From: Alphaproteobacteria bacterium
GTDB taxonomy: Bacteria; Pseudomonadota; Alphaproteobacteria; Sphingomonadales; Kordiimonadaceae
Direction of reading: 5' to 3'
Length of the DNA: 64,000 nt
Assembly: GCA_013372975.1 (NCBI GenBank)
Contig: JABXIS010000036.1
Span: 1 to 64,000, forward strand
Both the position numbers and the translations under genes were made by a program. Each line of letters starts with the position of its first letter. The stretch's first letter is position 1. Below, piece by piece: positions 45,903-54,147 of the stretch. The notes beneath the pieces are model-generated. The model did no database searches. It saw only the letters and a list, made by a program, of their open reading frames with translations, and was not told the origin of the DNA.

Positions 45903-46649
45903 TTATTCAGAAGCTGTTGAGGTTTCTTCTGTTTTTGCCTCTACCTCTTCAGGTTTCGGGCCGCCGATCCAGCCAGAGCCTGTCTCCGGGAAGGCTTCCA
46001 GGTCTTTCTCGTCTTTATAAGTCAGTGCATATGGACCGCTGGGAATCCCCCGACCTGCTGTATAAAGGGCGAAATTATTCGCAGTGCGAGCCAATGGGGT
46101 ATAGTCAGATTTCATGCTGTTGATTGCACCCGCAACTGCCGTTGCGATCAGATCCGCGATGAAGTTGCCCGAATTGCCGGATTGGGAATGCACGAACGAC
46201 TGTTCGTTCTGCCACATGGTCTCGCCGGATTGTGCGCTTTTCAGCGTGTACCGGAAAGATACAGTGATGTTTGACGACAGAATTACATAATTGGATTCCC
46301 ATTTCAGGATTTCAACCAGCAGAATTGAGTCTGCATCAAACAATTTGCCCAGGCGAACAGGGTCAGCTTCGTGAACCAGTGTGGGGTCAGACAATCCGTC
46401 TGCTTCCATGGTGCGCTTCACCATGTTGACCGGGAATACATAATAGCCACGCTCGCCAAGAGCATATGGCAGGGTGGTCAGGAAGAAATCTGCAGCTTCA
46501 GCTTCGTTAGAGCTGTTCATAACCGGCACCACGAGAATGGAGTGCGGGTCCATACTGCGGAAACTAGTGTAATCGTATGGGTCAACTTGAGTGGTCTTAC
46601 AGGCCGCTAGCGCTAGCAAAACAGACAATGCTATCAGTTTTTTAATCAT
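45903..46649 (-). CDS. DUF799 (GNA1162-like) lipoprotein
   Basis: The 248-residue lipoprotein has the lipobox LAAC (about residue 17) and resembles DUF799/GNA1162: HSILVVPVMNSSNEAEAADFFLTTLPYALGERGYYVFPVNMV, then LFDADSILLVEILKWESNY. The C-terminus is Glu/Thr-rich. In this group, DUF799, DUF4810 and CsgG-type proteins are often encoded together, as here. GGGAG lies nine bases before the ATG. Function is not known. Confidence 0.85.
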   Translation of the reverse strand: MIKKLIALSVLLALAACKTTQVDPYDYTSFRSMDPHSILVVPVMNSSNEAEAADFFLTTLPYALGERGYYVFPVNMVKRTMEADGLSDPTLVHEADPVRLGKLFDADSILLVEILKWESNYVILSSNITVSFRYTLKSAQSGETMWQNEQSFVHSQSGNSGNFIADLIATAVAGAINSMKSDYTPLARTANNFALYTAGRGIPSGPYALTYKDEKDLEAFPETGSGWIGGPKPEEVEAKTEETSTASE

Positions 46650-46662
46650 GGCATGTATCTCC

Positions 46663-47025
46663 CTAGCTTGATGCGCCGCTGATGCGGTCAATCACTGATG
46701 TCATGAAAGGAGCGGATTCAGGCCATGCATCACGTTCTTTGGCAAAGAAGACGAGAGCTTCCTGGACGTTGCCGGAATCATAGAGGGCATAGGCATAATC
46801 AGCATAAAGTCCTGGAGGTACTTTATCTTCCTTGCGCTCGATTTTTTCGATGATTTCCTTCAGGGAAAGAGCGAGCTCATCAGAGGCAGTGCCGTCTTTA
46901 TAATGCTTCAGCAGGGCATAATCGTACCCGCCCCAGTTATACATGGTTTTTGGGCCACCGCAGGCGGCCAAGGAGACCAGCAGCAATCCTGCCAGCACAC
47001 CTTTTTGTAGATTTTTCTTTGTCAT
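46663..47025 (-). CDS. DUF4810 lipoprotein
   Basis: A 120-residue lipoprotein with lipobox SLAACGG (Cys near residue 22). The segment TMYNWGGYDYALLKHYKDG is the DUF4810 signature; a TPR-like helical region follows (YADYAYALYDSGNVQEALVFFAKE). It lies between the 101-residue lipoprotein and DUF799 in the same operon. Confidence 0.85.
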   Translation of the reverse strand: MTKKNLQKGVLAGLLLVSLAACGGPKTMYNWGGYDYALLKHYKDGTASDELALSLKEIIEKIERKEDKVPPGLYADYAYALYDSGNVQEALVFFAKERDAWPESAPFMTSVIDRISGASS

Positions 47026-47046
47026 ATTGGCCTCGAACAAAAGAAA

Positions 47047-47352
47047 TTATGAGATGTTGATTGTGTGGGTAATGTTTTTGGGAAGAAAGATTTCGCCCCT
47101 AAACAGGACGTTGCCTGCAGGACCGACCACCTGAACCGCGTGTGTGCCGGTGGTTTCAACTGCAAAAGTGTCCTGATCTTCGGTGACTGTGCCTACAGAG
47201 CGGCCATCAACATATACCACTGTCCCAAGTGGCGCACCGTTCAGATCAATAGCAGGGCTATTGTCCGCCGTATTGGTGGAGTGTGTTGGCATATGCCCGC
47301 AAGCAGCGATCATTAGCAACGAGAATGACACCAGTGTCTTTTTCATAGACAT
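47047..47352 (-). CDS. Small lipoprotein with PEGA-like fold
   Basis: The 101-residue lipoprotein has lipobox LMIAACG (about residue 18). The mature part is short beta strands: GAPLGTVVYVDGRSVGTV and TGTHAVQVVGPAGNVLFRGEIFLP, reminiscent of PEGA domains. It starts two bases after the CsgG-like gene. I cannot name a family. Confidence 0.7.
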   Translation of the reverse strand: MSMKKTLVSFSLLMIAACGHMPTHSTNTADNSPAIDLNGAPLGTVVYVDGRSVGTVTEDQDTFAVETTGTHAVQVVGPAGNVLFRGEIFLPKNITHTINIS

Positions 47353-47354
47353 TA

Positions 47355-48287
47355 TTATTCCTCCGTCACGTAAAGGTCTTCAGGCCTGCCGTCGGCGATC
47401 TCGCCGGAGACAATTCTCGTAACTGCGCCCTCATTCATTTCGGAGTCGCCGAAAAGTTGGATGACTTGAACTTTGGCTACAGGGGTAGCGGGTAGCGTGA
47501 TGTCAAAGCCAGTTTGTTTGCTTTTGATTACTTGGCCAGCCTTCACGACAGTAAGCGTGTCGCCCACTTTCAATCCCTGACGCTCGCCGCCGGAGATATA
47601 AACCTGATCACCGGCCACCTGCAGAATGTCAGTTTTCCACGTCCGGTCCTGCAACTTGCCTACAAGCTCGTTGATAACTGCTGAAATTGCTGCGGAAATC
47701 GCTTGATCATTGAGGGTCGCATCATGTTCTGCCGTGGAGCCAACGCCCAAAACCGTTTTTGTTGTCGTGGAGGATTCTCCACTTCCCGTTGCAGAATGGA
47801 AGACAAGACCAGTTTTGACATCGACAAGCCTGATGGTGACAGTGGCTCGCGCTTTTTGCGTTTTCTTGCGGTTGAACAGGCCGCGCTTTCCGTCTGTGGA
47901 ACGACCAAACTCAACAATCGAACCAAGAATAAGGGTATCTACGCCGATTACAGCCCCTTCACTGCGAGATTGTTCGCGCTCGATTTTTTCAATATCGGGA
48001 CGTTCAAATACCAGAAAACGGCTTGTTTCGGTCAGCATGCTTGTCAAGATATCGGAAGCCTGTTTGCCTAACGGATCAAGGTCTTGATCCCTCAGCAGGC
48101 TGCGGCCATACCGTGTTTCATTGGAAAAGCGCCCGACAGCGAGTTTGATCTTCAGCTTCTTTTCGGCAAGTTCCGCACCAGCTTGTTCTGTTGCCACTGC
48201 TGTGTCAGACAGGACCAGTGGTGTCGTAGCTGCCAGGCACAAAGCAAGAAGACTTGCTTTCCCCGACAGGGAAGTGATGGATGTCAT
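47355..48287 (-). CDS. CsgG/HfaB-like curli-type protein
   Basis: The 310-residue protein resembles the CsgG/HfaB family: KIKLAVGRFSNETRYGRS, SDILTSMLTETSRFLVFERPDIEKIEREQ, VIGVDTLILGSIVEFGRS and ARATVTIRLVDVKTGLVFHSATG. A signal peptide ends near AVA (about residue 33). Unlike CsgG, I see no lipobox Cys at the cleavage site. It also has a C-terminal beta-rich extension with GERQGLKVGDTLTVV. CsgG makes an outer-membrane secretion pore and HfaB anchors holdfast, but neither substrates nor holdfast genes are nearby. Confidence 0.85.
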   Translation of the reverse strand: MTSITSLSGKASLLALCLAATTPLVLSDTAVATEQAGAELAEKKLKIKLAVGRFSNETRYGRSLLRDQDLDPLGKQASDILTSMLTETSRFLVFERPDIEKIEREQSRSEGAVIGVDTLILGSIVEFGRSTDGKRGLFNRKKTQKARATVTIRLVDVKTGLVFHSATGSGESSTTTKTVLGVGSTAEHDATLNDQAISAAISAVINELVGKLQDRTWKTDILQVAGDQVYISGGERQGLKVGDTLTVVKAGQVIKSKQTGFDITLPATPVAKVQVIQLFGDSEMNEGAVTRIVSGEIADGRPEDLYVTEE

Positions 48288-48453
48288 TGTCAATGAGCCC
48301 CCCAATTAGACGTCAGTGTCAAATTTACACAATTATGTATTAAATGTTAGCGACGGAAATAGCAACATGCACCGCAGCCTGACAACCTATAAAAATTTAA
48401 GTGCCCAAATTTTGCCATGAGTGCAGGGCAGGCTTTGACCAAGGAGAATGTTT

Positions 48454-48858: not shown

Positions 48859-48957
48859 GGTACCGGCCACGATTAAGGCAGCAATTGTGGCAAAAGGGTT
48901 CATGCGTCGTTCAGTTTCATTCCGCTAGGTTGAATGCCAGAATAGACGGAGGACACG

Positions 48958-50247
48958 ATGAAAAAAATCCGCATGACTTGGGCCCCGCTTTTATTGGCCA
49001 CGACAGCCATGATGATCTTACCTGCCGAGGTTTCGGCGGGCGACACAAAAGAACACCGTAAAAAAGCGCAGCAGGAACGCCAGCTCGAACGTCGGGAAGC
49101 TGTTCGTATGCGTGATAGTGCGCGCACGGCTCCACGAGCAGCCAGAACGCAGGAGCGCAGAGCCCCAAGCGCCCTTCCACCTGCTGAAAGGCAGGAACAG
49201 GCCCGGAACCTTTCAAATCGCATGGCTCCAGCTGTGAATCTTCGACCTGTTCGTGCCAGCGACGACCGTCAGCGCGCAAGGCAGGAGCGCCGCGAAGATC
49301 GTCGGCAGGAAAGCAGAAATGATCGTCGCGCGCCCAGGGCGGACAAGGACAAGCGTCACACGCATGTAACGGAACATAACCGTGACCGCCGTCAGGTTCG
49401 TGACACGCGGGGCCGTAATACAAACCGCACGATTGTGCCAGACAGCCGAGAGGATGCCGTGCGGATGCGGGACGGGCAACGAAGCCTTAGTCATGGCTAT
49501 CGTGATGACCGTCGCCGCGATAGTTGGGCGGGACGTGACCGTCGTGACTATGACCAGCGTGAGAATTATAGAGACCGCAACCATGGCCGCCGAGGTGACT
49601 GGTGGCGAGGCTGGGATCGAGGGCGCAATGGCTACAGCTATCGTCATGGCGGCTACAATCGCGGGTATAATCGTGGCTATTGGAATGGTTATCGCCGGGG
49701 CTTCCGTAGCAGCTGGTGGTACGGTGTACCAAGCTACACCAGCCTCTATTATTTTGGCCATTGGCCCTATCATTCAGGTTTCTGGCATGCCCGCGCGAGT
49801 TGGTTGTGGCATACCCATCACCATCACTATCACTATGGTGACTATTGCCCTGGCTTTGATTATCACTATGACACTCACTATTCGGCGGGCGTGCACTATA
49901 GCAGCCATTCGGACAATGTGGCAGGCACTATCCTTGGTGGCGTGATCGGCGGCATATTGGGGTCAGAGATTGATGGTGGACGGGATCGCTCGGCCGGTAT
50001 CATCATCGGGTCGTTGGTTGGCGCAGCCATCGGCAACGCAGCGACAAGTGGCAATAGCTATTCTGCCAGCAGCTATGACTATAGCTATGACGATGCGGGG
50101 TATGTGGATGATGATCCAAACCGCTATTATCTGGAAGATCAGAGCTATAGCCCACCACAGGAGCGTCGCACCTGTATTGAATATACGGTCAGAGACGGCA
50201 ACTATGTTTGCCGCAAGTGGGAAGTGGAATATGACTATAATGACTGA
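48958..50247 (+). CDS. Exported arginine-rich, His/Tyr-rich glycine-zipper protein
   Basis: This 429-residue protein is unusual. After a signal peptide (cut near SA, residue 27) come a region very rich in Arg, Asp, Glu and Gln (about 28-210), a Tyr/Gly/Trp-rich stretch, a His/Tyr-rich stretch (HTHHHHYHYGDYCPG), a glycine zipper (about 318-358: AGTILGGVIGGILGSEI, AGIIIGSLVGAAIG), and a C-terminal RRTCIEYTVRDGNYVCRKWEVEY with two Cys. The zipper implies a membrane or oligomer contact, the His run may bind metal. GGAGG precedes the ATG. No family is recognised except for the zipper. Confidence 0.7.
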   Translation: MKKIRMTWAPLLLATTAMMILPAEVSAGDTKEHRKKAQQERQLERREAVRMRDSARTAPRAARTQERRAPSALPPAERQEQARNLSNRMAPAVNLRPVRASDDRQRARQERREDRRQESRNDRRAPRADKDKRHTHVTEHNRDRRQVRDTRGRNTNRTIVPDSREDAVRMRDGQRSLSHGYRDDRRRDSWAGRDRRDYDQRENYRDRNHGRRGDWWRGWDRGRNGYSYRHGGYNRGYNRGYWNGYRRGFRSSWWYGVPSYTSLYYFGHWPYHSGFWHARASWLWHTHHHHYHYGDYCPGFDYHYDTHYSAGVHYSSHSDNVAGTILGGVIGGILGSEIDGGRDRSAGIIIGSLVGAAIGNAATSGNSYSASSYDYSYDDAGYVDDDPNRYYLEDQSYSPPQERRTCIEYTVRDGNYVCRKWEVEYDYND

Positions 50248-50357: not shown

Positions 50358-52043
50358 ATGAAACAGTTTTGCGTTGCGATGCTAGCAATACTGACTGCTT
50401 GCGCTGCATATGGCGAGCAAACCGCTGAAGTCGTTTATACAAACGGCACAATTTATACGGTCGATGAGGATATGCCCTGGGCATCAGAACTGGGTGTTCA
50501 GCAGGGCCGTATTGTCTGTGTGGGAGCCCCTGGCGCCTGCGATAGCTTCAGCGGGCTGCGTGAAGATCTTCAGGGCAGGTTCGTCATGCCGGGTTTTATA
50601 GATAGCCACAACCATGTGACTTATGCTCGTGGGACTGGGATGATCGACCTTGCGCCCGCGACAAACTATGAAGAGTTTCGCGCTCTTATCGAAGAGTTCG
50701 CTGCGGCAAGGCCGGATCTGCCTTGGATCATCGGCGACGGCTGGAACTATAGTATTTTCCCATCTGGCATGCCCAATTATCGCGACTTGGAAGGGCTCGC
50801 CGATGGCAGGCCAATGATGCTGATCTCCTATGATGCGCATACCAAGTTGTTGAACCGCACCGCCATGAACGCCTTCGGATTGACGGACGCGGCAGAAAGA
50901 ACGCCCATCGGATCAATCGTTCGGGATATAGACGGTAAACTGACCGGGATATTCAAGGCCGCCCTCTATATTTCAGAAGAGGACCAGAAGGCACTCAACG
51001 CCATCCTGCCACCGCCGGACGAAGAGGACCTGTACCAGTCGTTTCTGGGGAATCTGGATGAAGCTGCGTCGGTTGGGATTACCACGATCGTCGAACCACA
51101 AAATTATCCAGAGGATCTTGGTCGTTATGAACGGGCCCGTCGTGAAGGCAAGTTGAAGGCGCACATACGTCTGGCGCTTTACCATTCACCGAACGTGTCG
51201 GCTGAAGAATTTCAGGAATACAAAGCCATTCACGATCGCTATCGCAACGATCCCGATATTCGGGTTCCTGCCTTAAAGCTCTATGTGGATGACGTAATCG
51301 AATCCGAAACAGCGGCTGTGTTTGAACCCTATGTGGGGTCAGAGAATGTTGGGGAGCTTTTTTATGACCCGGAAGAATTCAAAACATTAGTGACACGGCT
51401 TGATGCCGAAGGCTTTCAGCTCTTCATTCACGCCATCGGAGACCGAGGCATCCACACGGCCCTTGATGCCCTCGAGGCGGCGAAGGTGGCAAATGGCAAA
51501 CCGGATGCACCGCACCAACTGGTTCATCTGGAGTTGATGAATCCGGATGATATTGATCGTTTGGCGGCCCTTGACGTTTCGGCAGCAATTCAGCCTCGGC
51601 ATCTATCGCCCGACATTACCGCACAGTGGGCCAAATCAGTTGGAGAGGCACGCCACAAATATGCCTGGCCGCTGAAGTCCCTTGCAGATGCAGGGACGCG
51701 GTTTGCCTTCTCATCCGACTGGAATGTTGCCGAGATGAATCCTTTTATCGGGATATTTACGGCGGTAAACCGCACTGGGCTGGCAGGTAATCCGGAAGGC
51801 GGTTGGCAACCGCAGGAGCGTATTGATCTGGCAACGGCTCTTGAGGGTTATACGATCATGGGGGCGATCTCAAACGGTATCGAAGCCGATCGAGGATCGT
51901 TGGAAGTAGGCAAGTTCGCCGATCTTGTCTTCTTGAATGTGAACCCTTTTGAGGTTGCTCCACTTGCCCTGAAGGACGTGCAAGTGCTGAAAACGGTATT
52001 TCAGGGGCGGGCAGTATATGACGTGCCCACGAGCCAAAACTAG
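50358..52043 (+). CDS. Lipoprotein amidohydrolase (YtcJ-like)
   Basis: A 561-residue metal-dependent hydrolase of amidohydrolase family 3. GFIDSHNH is the HxH metal motif, VEPQ..., FIHAIGDRGIH (His) and SDWN (Asp) complete the site. The N-terminus MLAILTACAAYG contains the lipobox LTAC, so the enzyme is tethered to a membrane facing the periplasm. AGGAGG precedes the ATG. The substrate is unknown; YtcJ relatives deacylate or decarboxylate small compounds. Confidence 0.85.
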   Translation: MKQFCVAMLAILTACAAYGEQTAEVVYTNGTIYTVDEDMPWASELGVQQGRIVCVGAPGACDSFSGLREDLQGRFVMPGFIDSHNHVTYARGTGMIDLAPATNYEEFRALIEEFAAARPDLPWIIGDGWNYSIFPSGMPNYRDLEGLADGRPMMLISYDAHTKLLNRTAMNAFGLTDAAERTPIGSIVRDIDGKLTGIFKAALYISEEDQKALNAILPPPDEEDLYQSFLGNLDEAASVGITTIVEPQNYPEDLGRYERARREGKLKAHIRLALYHSPNVSAEEFQEYKAIHDRYRNDPDIRVPALKLYVDDVIESETAAVFEPYVGSENVGELFYDPEEFKTLVTRLDAEGFQLFIHAIGDRGIHTALDALEAAKVANGKPDAPHQLVHLELMNPDDIDRLAALDVSAAIQPRHLSPDITAQWAKSVGEARHKYAWPLKSLADAGTRFAFSSDWNVAEMNPFIGIFTAVNRTGLAGNPEGGWQPQERIDLATALEGYTIMGAISNGIEADRGSLEVGKFADLVFLNVNPFEVAPLALKDVQVLKTVFQGRAVYDVPTSQN

Positions 52044-52140: not shown

Positions 52141-52749
52141 TCAGCGACCGGAAGGAGCGACTTCTTGCGAGGGCACTTCCTCTTCCTCTGCAGGCTCGAA
52201 CTCTTCTAGCCCATCACTTTCATACTGGCGAGGTTGATACTCATGTTCGTACCCACCACGTTGGCTCATGGCCTCGTAGGCATCATGGTCAAGCCGTACG
52301 CGAGTGCGGTCCCGGCCAAAGACCAGAATCACCGGCGTCCCTTCTGCGAAAGGATAGCGATCTTCCTGAACGATGGTGATGAGGTTGCCGCTGTCTGTTC
52401 GAATGATATATTCAAAACCTTCGGATTTGGACGCTGATTTATCAACACTGTTTCCGATCAAGCCACCCAGGAGAGCGCCGCCGATTGCACCGATTACGTT
52501 TTCTGCGCCGCTATTGCCGATTGTGGACCCAGCGGCTGCGCCAATGCCAACGCCAGCTGCAGTACCGACACCTTGATTGTGCCGTTTTATTTCGACCCAG
52601 CGGTAGCTATCTACAGTGCCACGTTCGACCCTTCTTGCCTCTCCAACAGCGTGAGAGTCATAAGAATGGGGTGACAGGCTTTGGGTGCAAGCAGTTGTTG
52701 CGAGCGCAAGCGGTAAAAGAAGCGCATAGCGGCTGATTTTCAGTCTCAT
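52141..52749 (-). CDS. Glycine-zipper 2TM lipoprotein (SlyB/Pcp-like)
   Basis: The 202-residue lipoprotein has lipobox TTAC (about residue 21), then a glycine zipper (GVGTAAGVGIGAAAGSTIGNSG, GAIGGALLGGLIGNSV) like Pcp/SlyB outer-membrane lipoproteins, and a beta-rich domain (EYIIRTDSGNLITIVQEDR). The C-terminal 40 residues are Glu/Pro-rich. AGGAG precedes the ATG. It is likely in the outer membrane and involved in envelope integrity. Confidence 0.85.
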   Translation of the reverse strand: MRLKISRYALLLPLALATTACTQSLSPHSYDSHAVGEARRVERGTVDSYRWVEIKRHNQGVGTAAGVGIGAAAGSTIGNSGAENVIGAIGGALLGGLIGNSVDKSASKSEGFEYIIRTDSGNLITIVQEDRYPFAEGTPVILVFGRDRTRVRLDHDAYEAMSQRGGYEHEYQPRQYESDGLEEFEPAEEEEVPSQEVAPSGR

Positions 52750-52971: not shown

Positions 52972-54147
52972 ATGAATATGAACGTTATCTCCGCCGCCAT
53001 TCAGCCCGTGGGACCTGACACCCGATGTGGTCTGATATTTGAGCGATTTCAGAAAGACAGCGATCTACTTGCGGTGCCTGTTACGGTAAAGGGGAAGCCT
53101 GTTGGGCTACTGAAAAGGACGGCATTCATGGTCCGGCTAGCGGACAAGTTTGGTCGCCCGCTCTATGAAAAGCGTCCTGTTACGGAATTGATGGACTGTG
53201 CACCAATGATTGTGGATGAAGAGATGTCCATCGATCTTCTTTACCAGATGTTGATGAGCGATCAGCGTCAGGCCCTGCAAGACGGTTTCATTGTTACAGA
53301 GAACGGTTTCTACAAGGGTATAGGTACGTCCTATACACTTTTGCAGCAACACATCCAGCGATCTCAACACCGTATGGTGGAGCTTGATGCAGCGCGCATT
53401 GAGGCTGAAGCCGCGACACGATCTCGAAGCCAGTTTCTCGCCAATATGAGCCATGAGCTCAGAACACCCCTCAATGCCGTAATTGGATTTGCTGATTTCA
53501 TGATGGCGGAGCGTGCCAGGGGGCGTCCAGTCAACGATTTTTGGGATTATGTCTCTGACATCAGGGATAGTGGCTCGCATCTGTTGGGGGTGATCAACTC
53601 CATTCTCGATTTCACCAAGTTAGAGGCAAATGCCTTTACGCTTCGGGAGGATTATGAAGCCCCTCAGGAGATTATTCACAAGGTCGCGCGAATGATGATG
53701 GGAGCGGCGCGCAAAAGGGGCATTGTCCTGACCGTTCGTGCGGAGGATCTCGGTGTGGAGTTACATGCGGATATTCAGGTTTGCACGCAGATACTGATCA
53801 ATCTGGTTTCAAATGCGATCAAGTTTTCACCCGAGGGTGCAAAGGTTGAGGTTTCTCAGCAGCTATCGGCAGATGGCGGCATCGAATTTATCGTTATGGA
53901 TGATGGTCCGGGTATGACAGCAGAAGAGCAAAAACGCGTGCTGGAGCCTTTCGTTCAGGCAGATGCCGGGCTCGCTCGTCGGCATGAGGGCACTGGGCTT
54001 GGCTTGCCGCTGGTGAAAGCCTTTACTGAAGCTCATGGGGGCAAGTTCGTATTGTCGGCGCAGCCCGGTGTTGGAACCCGCGCTGCGGTGTGTTTTCCTG
54101 CCTCTCGTTCGGTGGTGGATCAACCACGAGAGTATGCATTTCTCTAG
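52972..54147 (+). CDS. Histidine kinase with CBS-like N-terminal domain
   Basis: The 391-residue cytosolic kinase has an N-terminal region (about 15-125) with two CBS-like repeats (LLAVPVTVKGKPVGLLKRTAFM, then IVTENGFYKGIGT), a linker helix, then HisKA with NMSHELRTPLNAV (phospho-His near residue 160) and HATPase_c with NLVSNAIKFS, DDGPGMT and HEGTGLGLPL. The CBS-like part suggests nucleotide sensing. No response regulator is adjacent, and no membrane helix or output receiver is present. Confidence 0.85.
   Translation: MNMNVISAAIQPVGPDTRCGLIFERFQKDSDLLAVPVTVKGKPVGLLKRTAFMVRLADKFGRPLYEKRPVTELMDCAPMIVDEEMSIDLLYQMLMSDQRQALQDGFIVTENGFYKGIGTSYTLLQQHIQRSQHRMVELDAARIEAEAATRSRSQFLANMSHELRTPLNAVIGFADFMMAERARGRPVNDFWDYVSDIRDSGSHLLGVINSILDFTKLEANAFTLREDYEAPQEIIHKVARMMMGAARKRGIVLTVRAEDLGVELHADIQVCTQILINLVSNAIKFSPEGAKVEVSQQLSADGGIEFIVMDDGPGMTAEEQKRVLEPFVQADAGLARRHEGTGLGLPLVKAFTEAHGGKFVLSAQPGVGTRAAVCFPASRSVVDQPREYAFL

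Follow-up and report, generated by a model that had tools for sequence, protein, structure and literature searches.

The locus raises the question of what an exported protein could do that joins a long arginine-rich segment to a glycine zipper and a C-terminal pair of cysteines, and whether the frame that encodes it is a gene at all. The window analysed was a whole stretch of 64,000 nucleotides, and the features located in it are given in Table 1. The open reading frame of the protein under study (the target) is a real gene: orthologues in 19/19 genus genomes, dN/dS well below 1 in the less saturated pairs and a conserved gene order place it beyond chance. The initial annotation had allowed that the frame might be random; instead, coding conservation was found. 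The order of parts in the 429-aa protein is signal peptide, Arg-rich part, aromatic/Gly/Arg stretch (both YNRGYNRGYWNGY and HTHHHHYHYGDYC are present), HWPY...HHHHYHYGDYCPG motif, zipper, variable linker and two-Cys hairpin. The architecture first described for it was thus present in full, with C297 in addition; 297, 406 and 418 are the only cysteines. The signal peptide ends in ...EVSA, with a predicted cut at VSA|G (cleavage site assigned by eye), and is without a lipobox Cys. A literature search for this combination of domains found nothing.

Table 1. Positions of the target gene, its parts and its neighbours in the window.
Feature	Residues	Position	Strand	Basis or remark
CsgG, small lipoprotein, DUF4810, GNA1162-like operon		45903-48305	-	adjoins target
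Upstream glycine-zipper exported protein, 136 aa		48448..48858	+	profile match to target zipper, E 7.5e-9
GGAGG ribosome-binding site		48948..48952	+	sequence; just 5' of ATG
Arg-rich glycine-zipper exported protein (target), 429 aa		48958..50247	+	ORF, orthologues, synteny, dN/dS
Type I signal peptide	1-27	48958..49038	+	sequence; MLKKSLLL...A.A start of orthologues
Arg-rich polyampholyte	29-213	49042..49596	+	composition; model
Aromatic/Gly/Arg stretch (YNRGYNRGYWNGY)	214-258	49597..49731	+	sequence
HWPY...WxW..HHHHYHYGDYCPG motif, including C297	259-303	49732..49866	+	core invariant in genus
Glycine-zipper transmembrane hairpin	318-363	49909..50046	+	PF05433; predicted helices; SlyB best PDB match
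C-terminal beta-hairpin RxCxxYx6YxCxxW, C406 and C418	401-426	50158..50235	+	model; alignment
Amidohydrolase (PF07969), between target and SlyB homologue		50358-52043	+	no match at other 19 loci
SlyB-family lipoprotein, 202 aa, constant neighbour		52141..52749	-	SlyB 7ojf, E 7.9e-11; 19/19 loci

A search with a profile covering zipper and C-terminus gave one match in each of the 19 genus genomes (E ≤ 1.6e-38) and matched all 29 sampled family genomes, 26 of them strongly; the weak matches in the other three could represent another zipper protein. The target's own genome holds one copy. Pairwise identity among the 17 genus members of full length averaged 0.70 for the zipper, the most conserved part of the protein, 0.56 for both the C-terminal hairpin and the HWPY...CPG block, and 0.25 for the Arg-rich part. 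Every region showed a higher synonymous than replacement rate in the less saturated pairs. Values of dN/dS are quoted for the three closest pairs, synonymous sites being often saturated in more distant ones, and were 0–0.03 for the zipper. In the samples searched, the three conserved parts differ in reach: the HYHYGxYCP module was found in the genus only and the C-terminal hairpin essentially in the family only (26 genomes, with one marginal match outside the family, E 0.008), and the zipper is widespread across the class.

The zipper carries the sole significant Pfam domain of the protein, PF05433 (residues 323–362, E 5.7e-8, 33.0 bits vs. a curated cut-off of 24.2), which was matched by 23 of 23 aligned orthologues at E < 1. 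Profile comparison related it to the zippers of 17-kDa-type lipoproteins (hhalign, E 4e-14), of the adjacent SlyB homologue (2e-7) and of the 136-aa neighbour (Table 1). The full-length AlphaFold model, built with 23 sequences, was confident only at the zipper hairpin, the C-terminal beta-hairpin and part of two charged N-terminal helices, and residues from roughly 125 to 315 were predicted to be disordered. Zipper helices were predicted at 318–338 and 344–363 (pLDDT about 80). Their hydrophobicity is mild (mean Kyte-Doolittle 0.98 and 1.16), which fits helices that have to pass through the inner membrane and was counted in favour of the explanation preferred below. The first Foldseek match of the model was SlyB (probability 0.93, 38% identity over 45 columns), but with E 0.77. 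VIA-align gave Z 6.6 for SlyB (2.6 Å over 58 residues), Z 5.4 for a TIM23 chain and Z 4.9 for TraT; a Z of 6.6 is common among helical hairpins. Such values are middling for helical hairpins and so lend support to a SlyB-like fold of the modelled zipper without proving it; the profile comparisons agree with it in direction.

For the C-terminal hairpin, strands were predicted at 401–412 and 415–426 with pLDDT 94–96 over most of its length, and R404, C406, Y409, Y416, C418 and W421 are invariant (alignment A1). Folded alone, the C-terminal 118 residues gave a poorer model of low confidence. The two cysteines are spaced C-x11-C, and a direct C406–C418 disulfide looks unlikely, since the AlphaFold register, with its predicted turn at 413–414, places the two on opposite faces, C406 across from W421 and C418 across from Y409. 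On this model, inter-chain disulfides, or one with C297, would be likelier.

Residues 29–213 (185 aa) contain 51 Arg (28%), 5 Lys, 20 Asp, 13 Glu and 12 Gln. The highest Arg fraction in any 80-residue segment was 0.31, whereas none of 64 exported-like ORFs (drawn from 274 coding-like ORFs in 400 kb of one congener by a crude filter that lets in some cytoplasmic proteins) exceeded 0.16, which bears out the earlier view that such a pattern is rare for an exported protein. None of 2000 shuffles mixed the charges as evenly, and the net charge amounts to only +0.12 per residue; even mixing and low net charge suggest an extended polyampholyte, as opposed to a simple cationic patch. Helices were predicted at 30–56 and 101–123, with disorder from about 125. 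Matches of this region to PDB sequences, among them negative elongation factor E, were set aside as low-complexity matches. The check suggested at the outset was whether homologues keep the zipper and lose or vary the Arg-rich part, and variation was what was seen: across the full-length genus members (n = 17) the part is 138–307 residues long with 16–30% Arg, so that it drifts in sequence and length yet keeps its Arg content. The refuting condition set beforehand, absence of this part from all relatives, therefore does not hold. More distant genera have it shortened, or use Lys, His and Gly in place of Arg.

Gene order around the target is conserved across the loci of 19 relatives (at locus L045 the neighbourhood search missed the target, which a separate search found). 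The SlyB-like lipoprotein is convergent with the target at all 19, and the usual further neighbours are a histidine kinase, a Sel1 protein, an SDR and a DUF5117/Met-zincin protein. In the window, the last of these (PF16313, 55529-58297, minus strand) has a Lys/Glu-rich segment, and its counterparts occur at most loci compared; the histidine kinase (52972-54147, plus strand) is near the zipper genes in many relatives and missing in others. The 136-aa zipper protein is found upstream of the target at 8 of the 19 other loci, and co-transcription of the two genes is possible. Its orthologues share two invariant Cys and, mostly, the motifs CEGxGCDAYLP and RGDDxYYNPxHPIPxNAH; from these sequences it looks like an undescribed small family. 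The amidohydrolase is probably a recent insertion in the window, because of its absence from the other loci.

The explanation tentatively preferred, with a little less than an even chance of being right, is that the target is a non-lipidated envelope protein like SlyB and the 17-kDa antigen, in which zipper assembly is combined with a disordered Arg-rich periplasmic tether and which serves envelope stabilisation. By its export signal, the protein would pass through Sec into the envelope without being lipidated, and the zipper hairpin would sit most likely in the outer membrane, with the inner membrane as the alternative, packing on other copies of the target or on the SlyB-like and 136-aa zipper neighbours. 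The Arg-rich polyampholyte, with its short charged helices, may form a flexible periplasmic tether in contact with anionic components of the envelope; metal or disulfide contacts of the His/Tyr/Cys motif and the C-terminal Cys hairpin may stabilise the assembly, and the role would be to stabilise the envelope, as for SlyB. The PF05433 match, SlyB as best PDB match, the related zipper profiles, a SlyB homologue at every locus and Arg kept despite drift all favour this explanation. Against it count the Foldseek E-value, an ordinary Z, a C-terminus that models poorly alone, the missing lipid anchor and an unrelated C-terminal hairpin, and binding to anionic components is made less plausible by the even mixing of charges. 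An elaborated form, in which a family-specific zipper assembly of the outer membrane guards the envelope together with the SlyB homologue while the polyampholyte, kept by composition, spans the periplasm to the cell wall or inner membrane, was considered decidedly improbable.

Among other explanations, a periplasmic or surface metal-buffering protein, in which HHHHYHYGDYC would bind metal with the zipper as anchor and the Arg-rich part as spacer, is unlikely; in its favour, HxHYHYGxYCP is invariant in the 14 aligned genus members, HYHYG occurs in 18 members of the fetched set (all within the genus) and orthologues have 12–31 His per protein. The motif is compatible with metal binding, but it is missing from the other genera of the family, where zipper and hairpin persist, and the conserved neighbours included no recognisable gene of metal homeostasis. 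In the class genomes sampled, which include few close relatives, the HYHYGxYCP module had no match except in its own genome. It is very unlikely that the target is an adhesin or matrix protein that binds polyanions and is exported through the CsgG-type operon or acts with it. The gene does lie beside that operon in the window, as originally reported, and wherever the operon occurs in the genus (three genomes) it adjoins the target; the other 16 of 19 carry the target without a close CsgG homologue, so the target cannot generally depend on CsgG, and the operon was rejected as a general partner. Nor was any curlin family found in Pfam scans of the target and its orthologues, and the mixing of charges again argues against this role. 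In another genus, two genomes have only a distant CsgG homologue (32% identity), away from the target gene. The operon may be an ancient neighbour that was lost many times, or may have been inserted repeatedly at one site.

In a third alternative, likewise a minority possibility, function lies in the zipper and hairpin, and the Arg-rich part is a low-complexity expansion that is tolerated but has no specific role. This part changes fastest and varies most in length, some relatives have tandem-like RQSTRQST and RAQRQEQ units in it, and two have Lys/His/Gly-rich repeats in its place; however, its dN/dS was 0.09–0.25, Arg is held within the range given above throughout the genus, and the mixing of charges exceeds that of shuffled sequences.

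A single-copy gene present throughout the genus and nearly throughout the family in the samples, near a SlyB homologue, would be difficult to account for if it had no importance for the envelope, and the protein is a naturally occurring example of a disordered exported region whose composition is kept while its sequence drifts. Compared with known systems, its zipper matched the PRK11280-type protein (NF008437, which we take to be E. coli YcfJ) at E 9e-6, but with 25.6 bits vs. a cut-off of 99 and within the zipper only. TraT (PF05818, 9e2v) has a glycine zipper in an outer-membrane decamer, and its Pfam profile had no match in the target in the Pfam scan; the RcnB profile (PF11776) was not among the Pfam matches of the target or its orthologues. 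The Rickettsia-type 17-kDa surface antigen (PF05433 + PF16998) has a strongly related zipper and, like the target, ends in a two-Cys segment, but the target is not lipidated, and the antigen's C-terminal domain PF16998 (CREY...ACRQPDGSW) is absent from it, a Pfam scan of the C-terminal part giving no match to this or any other family. The two C-termini look alike by eye (C-x-E-Y...C...W); homology was not supported by hhalign (E 0.63). SlyB, which under stress assembles into transmembrane rings around outer-membrane proteins (review PMC13067283), is an outer-membrane lipoprotein of E. coli (7ojf/7ojg) that has the glycine-zipper hairpin in common with the target. Unlike SlyB, the target lacks a lipobox Cys, adds large Arg-rich and aromatic/His regions and ends in a hairpin for which no relation to the C-terminal part of SlyB was detected; the true SlyB homologue in the window is its convergent neighbour. 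The target is probably an unusual relative of known zipper envelope proteins rather than a new kind of system, a well-known membrane module in an unusual layout, and provides an entry to the question of how SlyB-like zipper proteins work outside enterobacteria.
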